Of a stretch of 45,851 nucleotides of DNA, positions 6,670 to 14,995 are shown in pieces. Where the stretch lies: NCBI GenBank assembly GCA_016879935.1, contig JAACJQ010000353.1, forward strand, positions 1-45,851. Direction: 5' to 3'. Origin of the DNA: Archangiaceae bacterium. Lineage in GTDB: Bacteria; Myxococcota; Myxococcia; Myxococcales; Myxococcaceae. Below the pieces are notes generated by a model that saw nothing but the letters and a program-made list of their open reading frames with translations, was not told the DNA's origin and ran no database searches. Numbering within the stretch: the first letter of the stretch is position 1; every line of letters starts with the position of its first letter. A program made the translations under genes and the position numbers.

Positions 6670-7512
6670 ATGTCGAGGCGACCCTTCTTCACGGCGTGTC
6701 CCGTGTGCGAGTGCCATGTGAGGGCGCCGCTCATCGAGTTCCCCGAGCTGGTCTACGTGCGGTGCGGCGGGTGCGGGCTCATCTACAAGTCGGAGCAGGT
6801 GGAGCGGCTCGGCGTCGGCTACGAAGACGAGTATTTCAAATACAACCGCGCCGGGTTTCTCAAACGCTGGGCGCATCGCGTACGAAAATGCATGCGACAG
6901 TTGAGAGATTGTCTGGTGGTGACACCCGACGCGAAGGTGGTGGTCGATGTGGGGTGCTCTGCCGGCTACGTGCTCGAGGCGGGCAGGCGACTGGGGCTCG
7001 AGCCGATTGGTGTCGACATCTCGCAGTTCGCGGTGGGGTTGTGTCGCGAGAAGGGCTTTCGCGCCGAGCTGGGCAGTCTGTCGAGCATTCCGTTGGCCGA
7101 TGAGTCGGTCGACATCGTGACGTTGAAGCACACGCTCGAGCACGTGCCCGATCCGCTCGCGGGGTTGAAGGAGTTGTTCCGCATTCTGCGGCCAGGCGGC
7201 TCGGTGCTGATCGTCGTGCCCGATGCAGACAAGTGGAAGATTGCGTTGATGCCGCGCGTAGGAAGAGACCTGCGACCCGAGCTGCGCGGGTGGCAACACC
7301 ATGTCTACTTCTCGAGCAGCACGTTGCGGTTGGCGTTGGCGCGATGCGGGTTCGAGGTGATGCACGAAGACAAGGCGGTGTTCCGACGCAACGCGAACCC
7401 GATCGTCGAGTGGCCACGGTTCGCGATGTACTGGGTCACGTCGAAGCTGGGCCGGTTGCTCCGCCTGCGCCGCGAACTGCACGTCGTGTCACGAAAGCCA
7501 ATGATGGGCTGA
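6670..7512 (+). CDS. SAM-dependent methyltransferase with N-terminal zinc ribbon
   Basis: The protein has 280 residues. Cysteines 10, 13, 32 and 35 (CPVC...CGGC) form a zinc-ribbon-like knuckle before the methyltransferase fold. Motif I reads VVVDVGCSAGYVLEAG and is followed by the acidic motif II residue in GVDIS. LKHTLEHVPDPLAGLKELFR and ILRPGGSVLIVVPD match class I (Methyltransf_11/23) motifs. This zinc-ribbon/methyltransferase arrangement is common in sugar or polyketide modification loci, but no such genes are adjacent, so the substrate is unknown. The C-terminal part contains aromatic and basic stretches (GWQHHVYFSSSTLRLAL). Confidence 0.8.
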   Translation: MSRRPFFTACPVCECHVRAPLIEFPELVYVRCGGCGLIYKSEQVERLGVGYEDEYFKYNRAGFLKRWAHRVRKCMRQLRDCLVVTPDAKVVVDVGCSAGYVLEAGRRLGLEPIGVDISQFAVGLCREKGFRAELGSLSSIPLADESVDIVTLKHTLEHVPDPLAGLKELFRILRPGGSVLIVVPDADKWKIALMPRVGRDLRPELRGWQHHVYFSSSTLRLALARCGFEVMHEDKAVFRRNANPIVEWPRFAMYWVTSKLGRLLRLRRELHVVSRKPMMG

Positions 7513-7562
7513 GTGGAGGCGTTGAGGCATCATGCTGCGCCCGAAGGCAACCGTGGGGTCTG

Positions 7563-9683
7563 ATGAGAGTTCGAGCCCGAGCCCTGCTGCTCTTGCTCCT
7601 GGCTGGGGGCTGCCAGTGCTTCGTGCCTGTGTCTGAGGACAGCGGAGTCGTCATCGATGCCGGCGTCGTCGATGCGGGCGTCGTCGATGCGGGCGTCGTC
7701 GATGCGGGCGTCGTTGATGCGGGCGCCGTCGATGCGGGCGTCGTTGATGCGGGCGTCGTCGATGCGAGCGTCGTTGATGCGGGCGTCGTAGATGCGGGCG
7801 TCGTCGATGCGAGCGTCGCCGATGCGGGCGCCGTCGATGCAGGCGCCGTCGATGCGGGCGTCATCGATGCGGGCGTCGTTGATGCGGGCGCCGTCGATGC
7901 GGGACCGATCGTCACCTGTGCAACCGTTCGATGCGCGCCCTGGGCGGTCTGCGTCGAGGACGCAGGCGCCTCATGCATTCCCACCGTCAGCGCACTCCGG
8001 TTCGTGGTTCCCAGTTTCGACGCGTCAATTCCAATCGACACGATTCGGCTCTCGATCGCGGTCGAAGTCACCGGAACCGCAGACTCGATTCCGGTGAGTG
8101 GGGGCCTCAGCTCGACAACTGCAATGCGAACAGACGCGGGTCTCGCTGTGGGAGCGCTGTCGTTCGTCCAACTTGATGCTGGTCTGCTGTTCCTCACTGC
8201 CGGCTGGAGTGGAGGCCCGCAGACGACGACCGTGGTGAACGTTTTGCCAGTGCGAGCAATTGAAGTCGTTGGGCCAAATCCTCCAAGTCACGGCGTCAAC
8301 ACGGCTGAGTTCGAGCCGAACGACCCAGAGGGAAACGCCTGGCGACTCGACGACGTCGTGCCAATCCGAAATTGGCCCGACACGGTCGTAGCAGCCCGTC
8401 ACGATTCCCCGGATGCGAGTACAGCGCTGCTTCGTGAAGGCGCGCCCTGCGACGGAGGCTGCTCGGGTTTCTATTTGCAGGATCTCGAGTTCAACGCCTT
8501 CCGAGACAACGTCGAACTTCGTGCCATCAGCGACGCAGGCTGGGAAGCCCGGCCCCAGCGAATCATCGTCACGCGCTGGCGTTGGCGCCGCGTTGTCGCT
8601 GGTGTCCCCAATCCCATCAAGGTTCAAACACCAGTCGTCGCCTACACGTTCAGCGCCAGTCGTGCGATCACGATTGGGACCAACGACACGGGCACGACGG
8701 GAAGGCTGGTCTTCGTCGACGCAGAGGGAAATCTGGAGCCAGGATGGGCGCCCCAATGGACCGCGGCGGTGACGGCCCCGATTGCCGGTTGCCTGCCCAC
8801 AGTCGCGGGGTTCGATGGAGACGCCGGCTTCCTGAGCAATCCCAATTGGGAGGGATTCCGTCGACCAGGAGAGCGCTATTCATTGCTCGGCGCCGCAGAC
8901 AACGTCTCAATCGCAGTCACCGAACAAGGCGACGTCATTTCGGTGGAGCACCAGACCGGGGTCTTTCCGCCGAATTTCGACTTCGGTAGATGCGGGTTCG
9001 ACGGAGGCCGCCCCACGAGTCTCGCTGCAGGAGCCTACGCTGGACTCGTTTCCAGTTCAGGTGGTGAGATCTGTGAGTTCCTTTACACACCAGGAGGCGC
9101 AGGCTCGCTCGCAGTCCTGCCCGTCAGTGCATACCCCCGCGCGATCTCGGGACAGCCGCCGGCCTACGTCACACGGGCCGGAGTGCTGATCGAAAACTCA
9201 CTTTTCGGGCGCAAAGAGACCGACGCGGGCGCTGCCGACACCTTGGTCTCGAACTTCGTCACCTATTACATCACAACGCCGACCCCACAATTCGTCGAAG
9301 TGCGAACCGCGTCTCTTGGCGCCGGTATCATTGAACGAATTCCACTTTTTTCCCGCATCACCGAACCCCCCGTCATGCGGAGCCTGTCCTCTGGCGAACA
9401 GCGGTTCTTCGCCGTCGACGACAACGGCCGCCTCATCGCCCTCGCTTCCTCGCCGCTGCGAACCCTCTGGTCCTGGGCTCCCGACGGAGGTCTTCCACTG
9501 AGTTCAGCGATCGGCTTCGCGCCATCCGCTACCCGGCTCGGCAGCCTGCTCATTCCCACAAGAGCGAGCGTGCTGAGCGTTGTCGCAAGTAAGGGCACGA
9601 ACGTGGGGAACTGGAGCCAGTCGGGAGGAGACCCTGCCAACTGTGGGGGCGACGGCGTCAGTCCGTACTTCGACCTTCCTTGA
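7563..9683 (+). CDS. Lipoprotein with DAGVV repeat linker, function unknown
   Basis: This 706-residue protein begins with a lipoprotein signal (MRVRARALLLLLLAGGCQC). Sixteen DA(G/S)xx pentapeptides follow, then a cysteine-containing segment (CATVRCAPWAVCVEDAGASC) of the kind seen after such linkers in myxobacterial lipoproteins. The remaining 580 residues have no family I recognise. They read as beta-rich, with segments such as FFAVDDNGRLIALASSPL and GRLVFVDAEGNLEPGW that suggest a PQQ/WD-like propeller displaying repeated values (inference). Codon choice from about 8000 to 9660 is less GC-biased than in neighbouring genes, which hints at weak selection or a recent origin. The start was chosen for its signal peptide; the frame is open further upstream but overlaps the methyltransferase. 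Confidence 0.75.
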   Translation: MRVRARALLLLLLAGGCQCFVPVSEDSGVVIDAGVVDAGVVDAGVVDAGVVDAGAVDAGVVDAGVVDASVVDAGVVDAGVVDASVADAGAVDAGAVDAGVIDAGVVDAGAVDAGPIVTCATVRCAPWAVCVEDAGASCIPTVSALRFVVPSFDASIPIDTIRLSIAVEVTGTADSIPVSGGLSSTTAMRTDAGLAVGALSFVQLDAGLLFLTAGWSGGPQTTTVVNVLPVRAIEVVGPNPPSHGVNTAEFEPNDPEGNAWRLDDVVPIRNWPDTVVAARHDSPDASTALLREGAPCDGGCSGFYLQDLEFNAFRDNVELRAISDAGWEARPQRIIVTRWRWRRVVAGVPNPIKVQTPVVAYTFSASRAITIGTNDTGTTGRLVFVDAEGNLEPGWAPQWTAAVTAPIAGCLPTVAGFDGDAGFLSNPNWEGFRRPGERYSLLGAADNVSIAVTEQGDVISVEHQTGVFPPNFDFGRCGFDGGRPTSLAAGAYAGLVSSSGGEICEFLYTPGGAGSLAVLPVSAYPRAISGQPPAYVTRAGVLIENSLFGRKETDAGAADTLVSNFVTYYITTPTPQFVEVRTASLGAGIIERIPLFSRITEPPVMRSLSSGEQRFFAVDDNGRLIALASSPLRTLWSWAPDGGLPLSSAIGFAPSATRLGSLLIPTRASVLSVVASKGTNVGNWSQSGGDPANCGGDGVSPYFDLP
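7656..7895 (+). repeat. 15-bp tandem repeat (16 copies) encoding DAGVV variants
   Basis: Sixteen copies of a gatgcgggcgtcgtc-like unit encode DAGVV, DAGAV, DASVV, DASVA or DAGVI, and a partial unit follows (GAT GCG GGA). Changes between copies include GTC/GTT/GTA and GGC/AGC, so the array is older or more diverged than the NTAGG array at the window start. The frame is preserved throughout. Confidence 0.95.
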
Positions 9684-9689
9684 CCGCCG

Positions 9690-9721
9690 TCGTCAACCAA
9701 CTCTCTGCGACAGGTTGACAA
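9690..9721 (+). promoter_or_regulatory. Putative BirA operator upstream of bioB
   Basis: An inverted repeat TCGTCAACC (9690-9698), a 14-base spacer, and GGTTGACAA (9713-9721) match in eight of nine arm positions. Known BirA sites in bacteria have this form: arms close to TTGTxAACC and GGTTxACAA with a spacer of 14 or 15. The right arm contains the -35 hexamer of the bioB promoter, so a bound BirA-biotinyl-AMP would block RNA polymerase. The identification rests on arm sequence, spacing and position. Confidence 0.7.
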
Positions 9722-9743
9722 GGCTCGGATCCGGTCCTATCGC
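9715..9743 (+). promoter_or_regulatory. Sigma-70-type promoter for bioB
   Basis: A perfect TTGACA (9715-9720) is followed after 17 bases by TATCGC (9738-9743), a weak -10 that keeps the TAT. It lies 37 bases before the bioB start, and GGAG at 9765-9768 serves as the ribosome binding site. The overlap of the -35 with the BirA-like operator supports it as the regulated promoter. Confidence 0.6.
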
Positions 9744-9779
9744 GCCGGAATTCCTCGTCTCTCTGGAGCCTCGCCACCC

Positions 9780-10814
9780 ATGACGACCTTCACCGGCCAC
9801 GGCCACACCGGCCATGAGCGCCCCACTCCGCCCGCCGAAATTCCGCTCCGCCACGACTGGTCCATCGCCGAAGTGAAAGCCCTCTACGAGCTGCCGCTGA
9901 TGGACCTCGTCTATCGCGCACAGTCCGTCCACCGCGCGGTGTGGAAGGAGAACAAGGTTCAGCTCTGCAGCCTCCTCTCCATCAAGACCGGCGGCTGCCC
10001 CGAAGACTGCGCATACTGCCCCCAGGCCGCGCGTCACGACACCGGCGTGAAGGCCGAGAAGCTGATGCAGGTGAACGAGGTGCTGACCTCGGCGAAGGAA
10101 GCCCGCGACGCCGGAGCCACGCGCTTCTGCATGGGCGCCGCCTGGCGCGAAGTGAAAGACGGCCCGCAGTTCGACTCGGTGCTCGAGATGGTGAAGGGCG
10201 TCAAAGCCCTCGGCATGGAGGCGTGCTGCACGCTCGGCATGATCTCCGAGACGCAGGCGAAGCGGCTCAAGGCTGCCGGCCTCGACGCGTACAACCACAA
10301 CCTCGACACCGGCGAGAGCCACTACGGCGACATCATCTCGACGCGCACCTACCAGGACCGTCTGCGTACCCTCTCCTTCGTCCGCGACGCCGGCATCGAG
10401 GTCTGCTCGGGCGGCATCATCGGCATGGGCGAGACGGTCGATCAGCGCTGCGAGATGCTCGTCACGCTCGCGAACCAGGTGAAGCACCCCGAGTCGGTTC
10501 CGGTGAACGCGCTCGTCGCCGTCGAGGGCACGCCGCTCGAGAAGCAGAAGCGCGTCGAGACCACCGAAATGGTGCGAATGATTGCCACCGCGCGAATTCT
10601 GATGCCCGCGTCGATGGTACGTCTGTCGGCCGGTCGGCTGCAGATGAGCGAAGAGGCGCAGCTGCTCTGCATGCTCGCCGGCGCCAACAGCATCTTCTTC
10701 GGCGACCGCCTGCTCACGACCTCGAACCCCGAGTTCGCCGCCGACATGGCGCTCCTCGAGAAGGCCGGCGTCAAGCCGCTCGAGCCGTCCACCGACACAC
10801 CGGTACAGCAGTAA
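9780..10814 (+). CDS. bioB: Biotin synthase BioB
   Basis: This 344-residue radical-SAM enzyme inserts sulfur into dethiobiotin in the last step of biotin synthesis. The radical SAM CxxxCxxC motif is C73-PED-C77-AY-C80. Family blocks [29 protein letters not shown] and [11 protein letters not shown] are all present, supplying the cysteines that bind the auxiliary 2Fe-2S cluster. The length is typical. The gene is preceded by a predicted BirA operator and promoter. The bioF-bioA fusion starts two bases after its stop, so the genes form an operon. No bioD, bioC or bioH is visible, so the rest of the pathway must lie elsewhere. Confidence 0.95.
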
Positions 10815-10816
10815 TC

Positions 10817-13327
10817 ATGGGCCTCGTGGACGAGTGGAGCGCGCAGGAACTGAGCGCGCTCCAGGCGAAGGGGCTGGCGCGTCGGCTCGAACCGCTCGAG
10901 TCGGCGCAGGGCCCCGTCGTGCGCGTCGACGGGCAATCGCTCATCAACTTCTCGTCGAACGACTACCTCGGGCTCGCGAACGACGAGTCGGTGCGGCACG
11001 CCGCGAAGCTCGCGCTCGAGACGTTCGGCGTCGGCTCCGGTGCCTCGCGGCTCGTCGTCGGCGATACGACCGAACACCAGGCCCTCGAAGCCGAGCTCGC
11101 GCGCTTCGAAGGCACCGAGGCCGCGCTTCTGTTCAACACCGGCTACGCCGCGAACACGGCGGTGCTCCCGTCGCTCCTCGGAGCGCACGACCTCGTCTTC
11201 TCCGACGCGCTCAACCACGCCTCACTCGTCGACGGCTGCCGGCTCTCGAAGGCGCGCGTCATCATCTACCCGCACGCCGATGTCGCCGAGCTCGAGCGTC
11301 TGCTCGCAGTGCACCGCGGTCGTCGCCGAATGATCGTCACCGACACCGTCTTCTCGATGGATGGTGACCGCGCGCCCTTGAAGGAGCTCGCCCGTCTCGC
11401 GAAGACCCACGACGCTGCGCTCTACGTCGACGAAGCGCACGCGACGGGAGTGATTGGCGCGACCGGTGCCGGGCTCTGCGAGTTCGCCGACGTGAAGCCC
11501 GACGTGCGCATGGGCACGCTCTCGAAGGCGCTCGGGTCGAGCGGTGCCTACGTGGCCGGCTCGAAGGCGCTGCGCGCATTGCTCGTGTCGTCTGCGCGTC
11601 CCCTCATCTTCTCGACGGCACTCCCCGCGATGGTGGTCGCAGCGGCGAGAGCGGCGCTGATCAAAGCGAAGGAGCCGACGCTCCGCGCGAAGCTCTGGCA
11701 GCACATCGAACGGTTCGCCACAGGAGCCCGCACGCTCGGCTTCGACGTCGCGCCCGACTCCGCGATCTTCTCACTCGTCATCGGCAGCCCTGACTCCGCG
11801 CTCCGTGCGAGTGAACACCTGCGCGAGGCGGGCCTGCTCGTGAAGGCGATTCGTCCACCGACGGTGCCAGACGGAACCAGCCGCCTGCGCGTTTCACTCT
11901 CGGCCGCGCACTCGACACAGCAGGTCGACGCGCTCCTCGACGCGCTCGGGTCGTTGCCGAAAGAACGTCGCGCTCCACTTGTGCCGAAGCCCACCGACAC
12001 GAAGCGCCTGCTCGCCGACGACATCGCGCACGTGTGGCACCCCTTCACGCAGATGCAGGTGTGGCCCGACGACTCGCCGCTCGTCATCGAACGCGCCGAA
12101 GGCAACTGGCTCATCGACACCGAAGGCCGCCGCTACCTCGACGCGATCTCCTCGCTGTGGGTGACGGTGCACGGCCACCGCCGCGTGGAGCTCGACGCCG
12201 CCGTGAAGGCGCAGCTCGACAAGGTCGCGCACTCCACCCTGCTCGGGCTCGCCTCGGTGCCCAGCATCGAGCTCGCGAAGAAGCTCGTCGCCATCGCACC
12301 CGAAGGCCTCAACCGCGTCTTCTATTCCGACTCCGGCAGCACCGCCGTCGAGGTCGCGGTGAAGATGGCGTACCAGTACTGGCAGCTCGCGGGCCGGCCG
12401 AAGAAACAACGCTTCGTCGCGCTCGCCGAGGCGTACCACGGAGACACCATCGGCTCGGTCTCGGTCGGCGGCATGGACCTGTTCCACGAGCGCTTCCGCA
12501 ACCTGCTCTTCCCCGTCGAGCGCATTCCAACCCCGCACGCGTATCGCTGGAACGGCTCCGATGTGCTCGCCGACTCACTGGCCGCGGCCGAGAAGCTGCT
12601 GCGCGAGAAACACCAAGAGCTCGCAGGCCTCGTCGTCGAGCCACTCGTGCAGGGCGCGGCCGGAATGCTGATGCAGCCGAAGGGCTATCTCAAAGGCCTC
12701 GAGACGCTCTGCCGCAGGTACGACGTGCTGCTCATCTGCGACGAGGTCGCGACCGGCTTCGGCCGAACCGGAACCATGTTCGCCGTCGAGCAGGAGGACG
12801 TGCGCCCCGACTTCCTCTGTCTCGCGAAGGGCCTCACCGGCGGCTACCTGCCGCTCGCCGCGACCATGGCCACCGAGCGCGTGTACCAGGCGGTCCTCGG
12901 CTCGTTCGGTGAAGCGAAGACGTTTTTCCACGGCCACACGTACACGGGAAATCCGCTCGCGTGCGCCGCCGCCCTGGCTTCGTTGAACCTGTTCGAGACC
13001 GACTCCACGCTCGAACGCGTCAAGCCCGTGATGCAGACGTTGGAGCGCGGCCTCTCACGAATCGCGCAGCTGCCTCACGTGGGCGACGTGCGCCGCCGCG
13101 GCATGATGGTCGGCATCGAGCTCGTGAAGGACCGCGCCACGAAGCAGGAGTACGCGTTCGACGAACGCCTCGGCTTCAAGGTCTGTCTCGAAGCGCGCAA
13201 ACACGGGGTGTGGGTTCGCCCACTCGGCAACGTCATCGTGCTCATGCCGCCGCTTTCGCTCACCGTCGCCGAGGCCGAGCTGCTGCTGAACGCCGTGGAG
13301 CAGTCGATCGTTCAGCTCACGCAGTGA
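10817..13327 (+). CDS. BioF-BioA fusion: 8-amino-7-oxononanoate synthase / DAPA aminotransferase
   Basis: One uninterrupted 836-residue frame encodes two PLP enzymes that act consecutively in biotin synthesis. Residues 1-385 are BioF, with [36 protein letters not shown] and the PLP lysine K237 in [12 protein letters not shown]. Residues about 395-836 are BioA, with [43 protein letters not shown] and the PLP lysine K671 in [10 protein letters not shown] short Pro/Arg linker ([14 protein letters not shown]) joins them. BioF condenses a pimeloyl thioester with alanine to KAPA and BioA transaminates KAPA to DAPA, so the fusion could channel KAPA. Both active sites look intact. The start ATG lies two bases after the bioB stop. 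The frame is open upstream through bioB, but that stretch is a shadow. Confidence 0.93.
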
Positions 13328-13345
13328 AGATGCGACGCTGCGGTC

Positions 13346-14995
13346 GTGCCGACGATCGACACGAGCGCGCTCGCGACCCGGTTGCTTCAGGGAGCGCCAG
13401 GCGCACGCGAAGAGGTCGAGCGTTCGTTCGGCGTCGAGCTGCCCGCTCATCACTTCTCGATGTTGCGGCGACTCGCGAAGGAACACGGCGACGAAGCGCG
13501 GGGACTGGGCATCGTGCTCTCGCTGCTCTCCCGCTTCGCGCACGCGACCGATGATCTGCTCTACGAACGCCACGAGCTTCGCAGGGCCCTCGTGCATGAC
13601 CTCATCGTTCGCTGGGACGATGCGGGCACAGGCAGGGTCACCATCGGCGTCGCGAAGACGTACGCGCGATCGATCACCGAGGCGTGGCCAGAGCTCGAGC
13701 CGTGGTCACGAACGCTCGAGAAGAACCGTGAACGACTGAACGCCTGGGCTCGCAAGTCTTCGGGAGCCACCGTCACGTTGAAGGCGCGGCCGGTCGAAGC
13801 GGTCGCCAGCGCTTACGACGAAGCGATGCTGCGCGCTGCCATCATCGCCGACCCCGACGCCGATGAACCGCGGCTCGTCTACACCGACTGGCTGATGGAG
13901 CGCGGTGACGTTCGTGGCGAGCTCATTCGTCTGCAGTGCGCAGCGCCGTCGTTCGAGTCTCGGCAGCGCATCAACGAAATCCTCTCCGCGAACTGGACGA
14001 CCCTGGCGGGGCCGGCGGCGACCTTCACCACGCAGGCCTCGTTCGATCGCGGCTTCGTCGACCGCGTGACCATGACGATCGCGGCGTTCCTCAAACACGG
14101 CGAGGCGCTCTTCTCGACCGAGCCGATTCGCAGCTGGCGCGTCGACAACCCGAAGTTCACCGATCGCGAGCTCGAGCGGCTCGGCAGGGCTCCCGCGATG
14201 GAGCGGGTTCGCAGACTCGAGCTCGCACAACTGAACCCCGACGCGAAGCCACGCCGCCCGCTCGCTGCCCTCGCCAGGGGCACGACGTTCTCGAGCCTGA
14301 GACGCCTGGCGCTCGACTTCTGCGGTGAGTCTCCCGGCGATTGGGGCACGCTGTTCGGAACGCTCGCGGCGCCGAAGCTCGAAGCCGTGCACCTGCACTA
14401 CAACCACGGCAGCGCTGAGCTGTACCGCGCGCTCGCCACGAACCCGTCGTTGAACGAGCTCCGCACGATTCAGGAGTACCGGTTTCGCACGCTCGATGGC
14501 GACGACGCTGCTTCGAAGACCGTCGACGCCTTCACCGCGCTCGCCCAGCACCGGCCGTCGCTGAAGCACCTCGAGACGTCGCAACTGGCCCACGTCACCG
14601 ACGCCGCCCTGGCGCCCTTCTTCCAGCCAGACTCGGTCGTGAAGCTGGAGCACCTCTCCATCACCGGCGCCCGGCTCACCGACGTCACCGCGCGCACCAT
14701 CGCGCAGTCGCCGAGCTCGCGCGCGCTCCGCGTGCTGCACACCCACAACGCGAACATCGGCCTCGAAGGCCTCGAGGCGCTGCTCTCGTCGCAGCACCTG
14801 TTCCAGCTCGAACGCCTCGCGGTCGGAAACTACGACGAGCAGCTCTGGCCGGCCGCACACGTCGCCCGATTCGCCGAGCTGCTCCTCGCGCTCCCTGCCA
14901 CGTGGCGCCTTCACGAAGTCACCCTGCCCCGCGCCGCCAGCCTGCCAACGACGCTCGCGAGCGCACTGAACTCCAGGTTCACGGTGTCACTCTGA
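13346..14995 (+). CDS. TIGR02996 repeat-companion domain protein with LRR-like C-terminus
   Basis: The protein has 549 residues and a GTG start 18 bases after bioFA. Residues about 155-192 match the TIGR02996 repeat-companion domain, with the hallmark LRAAIIADPDADEPRLVYTD followed by WLMERGDVRGELIRLQ. This domain is common in Myxococcota and Planctomycetes beside leucine-rich or other repeats. The following 350 residues contain spaced leucine patterns, such as LRRLALDF, LEAVHLHYN, LKHLETSQLAHVTDAAL and LEHLSITGARLTDVTA, consistent with irregular LRR units. The first 150 residues are helical and unassigned. The role is unknown. Co-orientation with biotin genes may be incidental. Confidence 0.75.
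   Translation: MPTIDTSALATRLLQGAPGAREEVERSFGVELPAHHFSMLRRLAKEHGDEARGLGIVLSLLSRFAHATDDLLYERHELRRALVHDLIVRWDDAGTGRVTIGVAKTYARSITEAWPELEPWSRTLEKNRERLNAWARKSSGATVTLKARPVEAVASAYDEAMLRAAIIADPDADEPRLVYTDWLMERGDVRGELIRLQCAAPSFESRQRINEILSANWTTLAGPAATFTTQASFDRGFVDRVTMTIAAFLKHGEALFSTEPIRSWRVDNPKFTDRELERLGRAPAMERVRRLELAQLNPDAKPRRPLAALARGTTFSSLRRLALDFCGESPGDWGTLFGTLAAPKLEAVHLHYNHGSAELYRALATNPSLNELRTIQEYRFRTLDGDDAASKTVDAFTALAQHRPSLKHLETSQLAHVTDAALAPFFQPDSVVKLEHLSITGARLTDVTARTIAQSPSSRALRVLHTHNANIGLEGLEALLSSQHLFQLERLAVGNYDEQLWPAAHVARFAELLLALPATWRLHEVTLPRAASLPTTLASALNSRFTVSL

Follow-up and report, generated by a model that had tools for sequence, protein, structure and literature searches.

The window analysed here is a stretch of 45,851 nucleotides from an Archangiaceae genome. 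It contains bioB followed directly by a single long gene, bioFA, in which two further biotin enzymes, usually made as separate proteins, are joined. The features of the locus are as follows.

9780..10814, + strand: bioB, biotin synthase, 344 aa (TIGR00433, 397 bits against a cut-off of 225)
10817..13327, + strand: bioFA, fused 8-amino-7-oxononanoate (KAPA) synthase / DAPA aminotransferase, 836 aa
10817..11947, + strand: BioF domain, residues 1–377 (TIGR00858 match at 21–377; E. coli BioF 1bs0 aligns over 12–377)
11525..11527, + strand: codon of the BioF PLP lysine K237, invariant in the 20-row alignment
11948..12016, + strand: inter-domain linker, residues 378–400, 23 codons, variable and rich in Pro, Arg and Ala
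11981..11983, + strand: in-frame GTG inside the linker, the most plausible internal BioA start here, near the usual BioA N-terminus
12017..13324, + strand: BioA domain, residues 401–836 (TIGR00508 match at 406–831)
12827..12829, + strand: codon of the BioA PLP lysine K671, invariant in the 20-row alignment
13346..14995, + strand: gene with a TIGR02996 domain (55 bits against a cut-off of 29), 18 nt downstream of bioFA

Domains of the fused protein and its neighbours

Translation of bioFA runs from the ATG at 10817 to the TGA at 13325–13327 with no internal stops. A longer open reading frame at 9941–13327 (1128 aa) consists of bioFA plus a 5′ extension, and is out of frame with bioB. Pfam identifies Aminotran_1_2 followed by Aminotran_3 in the product, and the two curated equivalog families are both matched above their cut-offs: TIGR00858 (bioF) on residues 21–377 with 468.3 bits (cut-off 426.45), and TIGR00508 (bioA) on residues 406–831 with 566.7 bits (cut-off 405). 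The earlier note had claimed that BioF and BioA, which catalyse consecutive steps of the pathway, are joined in a single frame through a short linker with both PLP lysines, K237 and K671, in place. This description is borne out: the 836 residues are uninterrupted, both positions are lysine, and the two steps are consecutive. Among the family and solved-structure matches listed, no family or solved chain covers both the BioF and the BioA domain.

Taken singly, the two domains are ordinary. H134, D205 and H208 of BioF, which like K237 align with E. coli BioF 1bs0, and Y540, E608, D642 and R801 of BioA are all present and invariant in the 20-row alignment, which includes distant relatives and whose rows from outside the genus are bioF-stop-bioA neighbours read through their stop codons rather than fusions. 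Both domains are under purifying selection, with pairwise dN/dS among the fused genes (NG86) of 0.21–0.41 for BioF and 0.16–0.29 for BioA. The solved BioA chains 3dod, 6wnn, 6zhk and 6ed7 align across the BioA domain. The scores are 484 bits for 3dod, which we take to be the lysine-dependent enzyme of B. subtilis, 465 bits for 6zhk, and 309 bits for E. coli BioA 6ed7. At the position of E. coli Tyr17, 3dod has F, as does bioFA (F410), and 6zhk has Tyr. The amino donor may be S-adenosylmethionine or, as in B. subtilis BioK, lysine; for bioFA, sequence alone favours neither decisively.

The structure of the product was predicted using AlphaFold2 from the 20-row alignment, giving a mean pLDDT of 84.3 and a pTM of 0.54. 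The model consists of two confident folded domains with a break at residues 383–392, the core of the linker, where pLDDT falls under 50. At this pTM the relative position of BioF and BioA is not fixed by the model, which therefore gives no claim on channelling; it is also a single chain, in which the expected dimers cannot show.

The stop of bioB is separated from the ATG of bioFA by 2 nt, and bioB holds the same place in the fused relatives (L009–L012 and L025), where it is 83–89% identical. A separate bioD is located elsewhere in the genome, and was found in six of the seven genomes of the genus. With bioB, bioFA and bioD present, all the steps from pimeloyl thioester to biotin are encoded. 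BioW has no match in the genus and was rejected as the source of pimelate. BioC has no match over the cut-off in this genome, but of 14 control genomes only one passed it. A scan of 9500–13600 found no promoter pattern of the sigma-70 type, which is a weak test in a GC-rich genome.

The gene at 13346–14995 was considered as a member of the bioFA unit and rejected: it has no match in the fused relatives, and is therefore probably a recent neighbour. We also note an 816-residue open frame at 7233–9683 on the + strand, which matches nothing in NCBIfam or Pfam, has no tblastn counterpart in related loci, and overlaps a methyltransferase frame at 6670–7512. This frame may be a non-gene, or may be lineage-specific.

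Occurrence of the fusion

Five of the seven genomes of the genus (G000, G002, G003, G004 and G006) contain a stop-free frame across the whole protein, with 75–100% identity; G000 is the source genome of the window, and the other full-length fused copies are 75–84% identical to it. In G001 the two halves of bioFA lie at two contig ends, which share an exact overlap of 69 nt within the first part of the BioA domain. A split gene in G001 was therefore rejected, and this genome is taken to carry the same fusion. In G005, which is 85% complete, bioD was found and bioFA was not. The genus has no second bioF or bioA of the same type; the best remaining matches are at most 42% identical. The named records behind the related loci derive from metagenome assemblies and bear the labels Myxococcaceae, Myxococcales or Myxococcus sp.

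The window is part of a draft assembly of 445 contigs, and we considered whether an error of assembly or sequencing might have erased a stop between two genes. The same fused frame is present in six genomes of the genus, at 75–84% identity to the window copy where it is full-length, and a search of the other assemblies for a stop or frameshift found none. Chance and misassembly are both excluded by the stop-free frame in five genomes and by the overlap in G001; the probability that we assign to such an error is vanishingly small. Like the natural fusions BioWF and BioAD, bioFA unites enzymes of two successive biotin steps in a single open frame, and it is kept in six genomes.

Outside the genus, no other stop-free match spanning both domains was found in approximately 1,420 genomes from five phyla, using searches that would miss fusions with the domains reversed or with less than about 40% identity, and a sample that excludes Pseudomonadota, Bacteroidota, Actinomycetota and eukaryotes. 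Among the 195 genomes of Myxococcota there is no further stop-free spanning match, and the nearest spanning matches beyond the genus (G047, G078 and G165) are all interrupted by a stop. In the four further phyla (395, 398, 387 and 46 genomes, one of these samples being searched without a positive control) the only spanning matches, where there were any, had stops. Long “open frames” in G082, G108, G203 and G204 were rejected as further fusions, since there are stops between the genes in the sequence. In a plasmid collection, five records matched over 80% or more of the query, and all are annotated with separate bioA and bioF. The possibility that the fusion is widespread, raised in the earlier note, does not hold in the genomes sampled. 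The BioF-BioA fusion is real, conserved and, as far as sampled, confined to one uncultured myxobacterial genus.

In many genomes of the same family (genera g23, g26, g15, g7 and others) there is a BioF relative of about 60–63% identity, whereas the only BioA relative is more distant (about 43%) and encoded elsewhere. In the closer relatives of the genus, by contrast, the two genes are paired.

The linker and the origin of the fusion

The linker is the least constrained part of the protein. Its amino acid identity among the fused genes is 22–57%, and its dN/dS is approximately 0.5–1.8 (NG86, which is rough for such short stretches). Frame and length are nevertheless nearly unchanged: the linker of the relative L012 is two residues longer, and no stop has been gained in any of the fused genes.

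A full-length fusion might be accompanied by a separate BioA translated from the GTG at 11981, making the fusion partly or wholly a translational arrangement. This GTG is in frame, 18 codons upstream of the WHPFTQM motif and about where BioA usually begins, and the close spacing or overlap of bioF and bioA in the relatives makes translational coupling a plausible ancestral state. However, this candidate start is not conserved among the fused genes, which have GTG or TTG at different positions in the linker, and no clear Shine-Dalgarno sequence was seen upstream of 11981 by eye. In the linker of L003/L010, the 60 nt nearest the BioA core contain no start codon, and comparison of the linkers revealed no internal start codon common to the fused genes. 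We therefore regard this arrangement as quite improbable. The absence of a shared start codon, together with the retention of frame and length, favours one polypeptide rather than two, with some internal initiation possible in the present gene.

The closest relatives have bioF and bioA as two distinct neighbouring genes, in arrangements that range from an overlap to gaps of about 100 nt. Among 24 distinct loci with bioF and bioA in the same frame, the stop is absent only in five, all of them in this genus. The six fused sequences form one clade (support 1.0 for BioF, 0.97 for BioA and 1.0 for the concatenated tree), and the sister loci to this clade have separate, adjacent bioF and bioA. A single fused clade with such sisters is most simply explained if the genes were joined in frame only once, in an ancestor of the genus. 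The event would have occurred once in a bioB-bioF-bioA cluster, by loss of the bioF stop and joining of bioF and bioA in frame.

The two genes are often in the same frame with one stop between them at other loci also (L006, L095, L014, L096, L137, L146 and others). At loci such as L006 and L014 a one-codon change would join bioF and bioA, and no fusion was seen there.

Proposed function and comparison with known fusions

The N-terminal BioF domain is expected to convert a pimeloyl thioester and L-alanine to KAPA (8-amino-7-oxononanoate), which the C-terminal BioA domain would transaminate to DAPA. BioF and BioA are homodimers elsewhere, and the expected assembly of bioFA is therefore a dimer or larger, with two BioF and two BioA sites and, between the domains, a flexible stretch of about 23 residues. 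The most likely gain from such an arrangement would be that the two kinds of site are kept in a fixed 1:1 ratio and close to one another, rather than a closed tunnel. Activity of both domains, assembly into oligomers and an effect of proximity are inferred. The best explanation of the data as a whole, which we hold with considerable confidence, is that bioFA very probably encodes a bifunctional KAPA/DAPA synthase, on one polypeptide and of single origin within the genus.

The earlier note regarded KAPA channelling as possible. In its strong form, the proposal is that KAPA made at the BioF site reaches the BioA site without entering bulk solvent, and that this true channelling was the reason for fixation of the fusion. 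The two steps are consecutive, the enzymes are covalently joined, and KAPA is, as a matter of general chemistry, a reactive aminoketone. Against this, the linker sequence changes freely, with a dN/dS near 1, and the arrangement of the domains is undefined by the structural model. Fixation by drift or for stoichiometry accounts for the same data. We therefore consider channelling an unlikely reason for fixation, and the corresponding description of bioFA, as an undescribed bifunctional synthase that retains reactive KAPA between the PLP site of BioF and that of BioA within a single chain, is similarly doubtful. The reading that we prefer is the bifunctional synthase with its stoichiometry and site proximity.

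The earlier note did not regard BioF-BioA as an established combination, and this holds as far as the literature and the sampled genomes reach. The natural biotin-enzyme fusions named are BioA-BioD and BioW-BioF (PMC9544090). BioW-BioF occurs in Desulfosporosinus orientis and Corynebacterium amycolatum, and was shown to be bifunctional (PMC9544090). BioA-BioD (DAPA aminotransferase-dethiobiotin synthetase) is described from plants and fungi, PDB 4A0R (PMC10829540, PMC9544090), and a 2024 paper on transaminase fusions gives BioA-BioD as a biotin example (PMC10829540). A full-text search, with most subscription journals outside its scope, found no BioF-BioA fusion, and the combination is apparently undescribed.

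Few natural fusions of biotin enzymes are on record, and bioFA adds one in which two PLP enzymes acting in succession are joined. Together with its close relatives with separate genes it provides a matched pair, in which the effect of joining could be sought in KAPA leakage, in flux, or only in stoichiometry. It is also a natural candidate for aminoketone-to-diamine biocatalysis.

Both known fusions resemble bioFA in part. BioW-BioF is likewise a natural fusion of two consecutive biotin enzymes that includes a BioF domain; however, its partner is BioW (pimeloyl-CoA synthetase) and its BioF domain is C-terminal, whereas in bioFA the BioF domain is N-terminal and the partner is BioA, in a genus without a BioW match. 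BioA-BioD is also a natural fusion with a consecutive step, and bioFA shares with it a C-terminal BioA domain; but BioA-BioD is eukaryotic and its partner carries out the step after BioA, whereas the partner in bioFA carries out the step before, and bioD is separate. The separate bioF-bioA pairs of other Myxococcota and other phyla (for example L008, L022, L006 and L014) have the same gene order as bioFA, and in near relatives bioB lies upstream and the two genes are the closest homologues of both bioFA domains. In these pairs bioF is closed by a stop and translation of bioA begins at a start codon of its own, and the continuous frame of bioFA occurs at no examined locus outside the genus.
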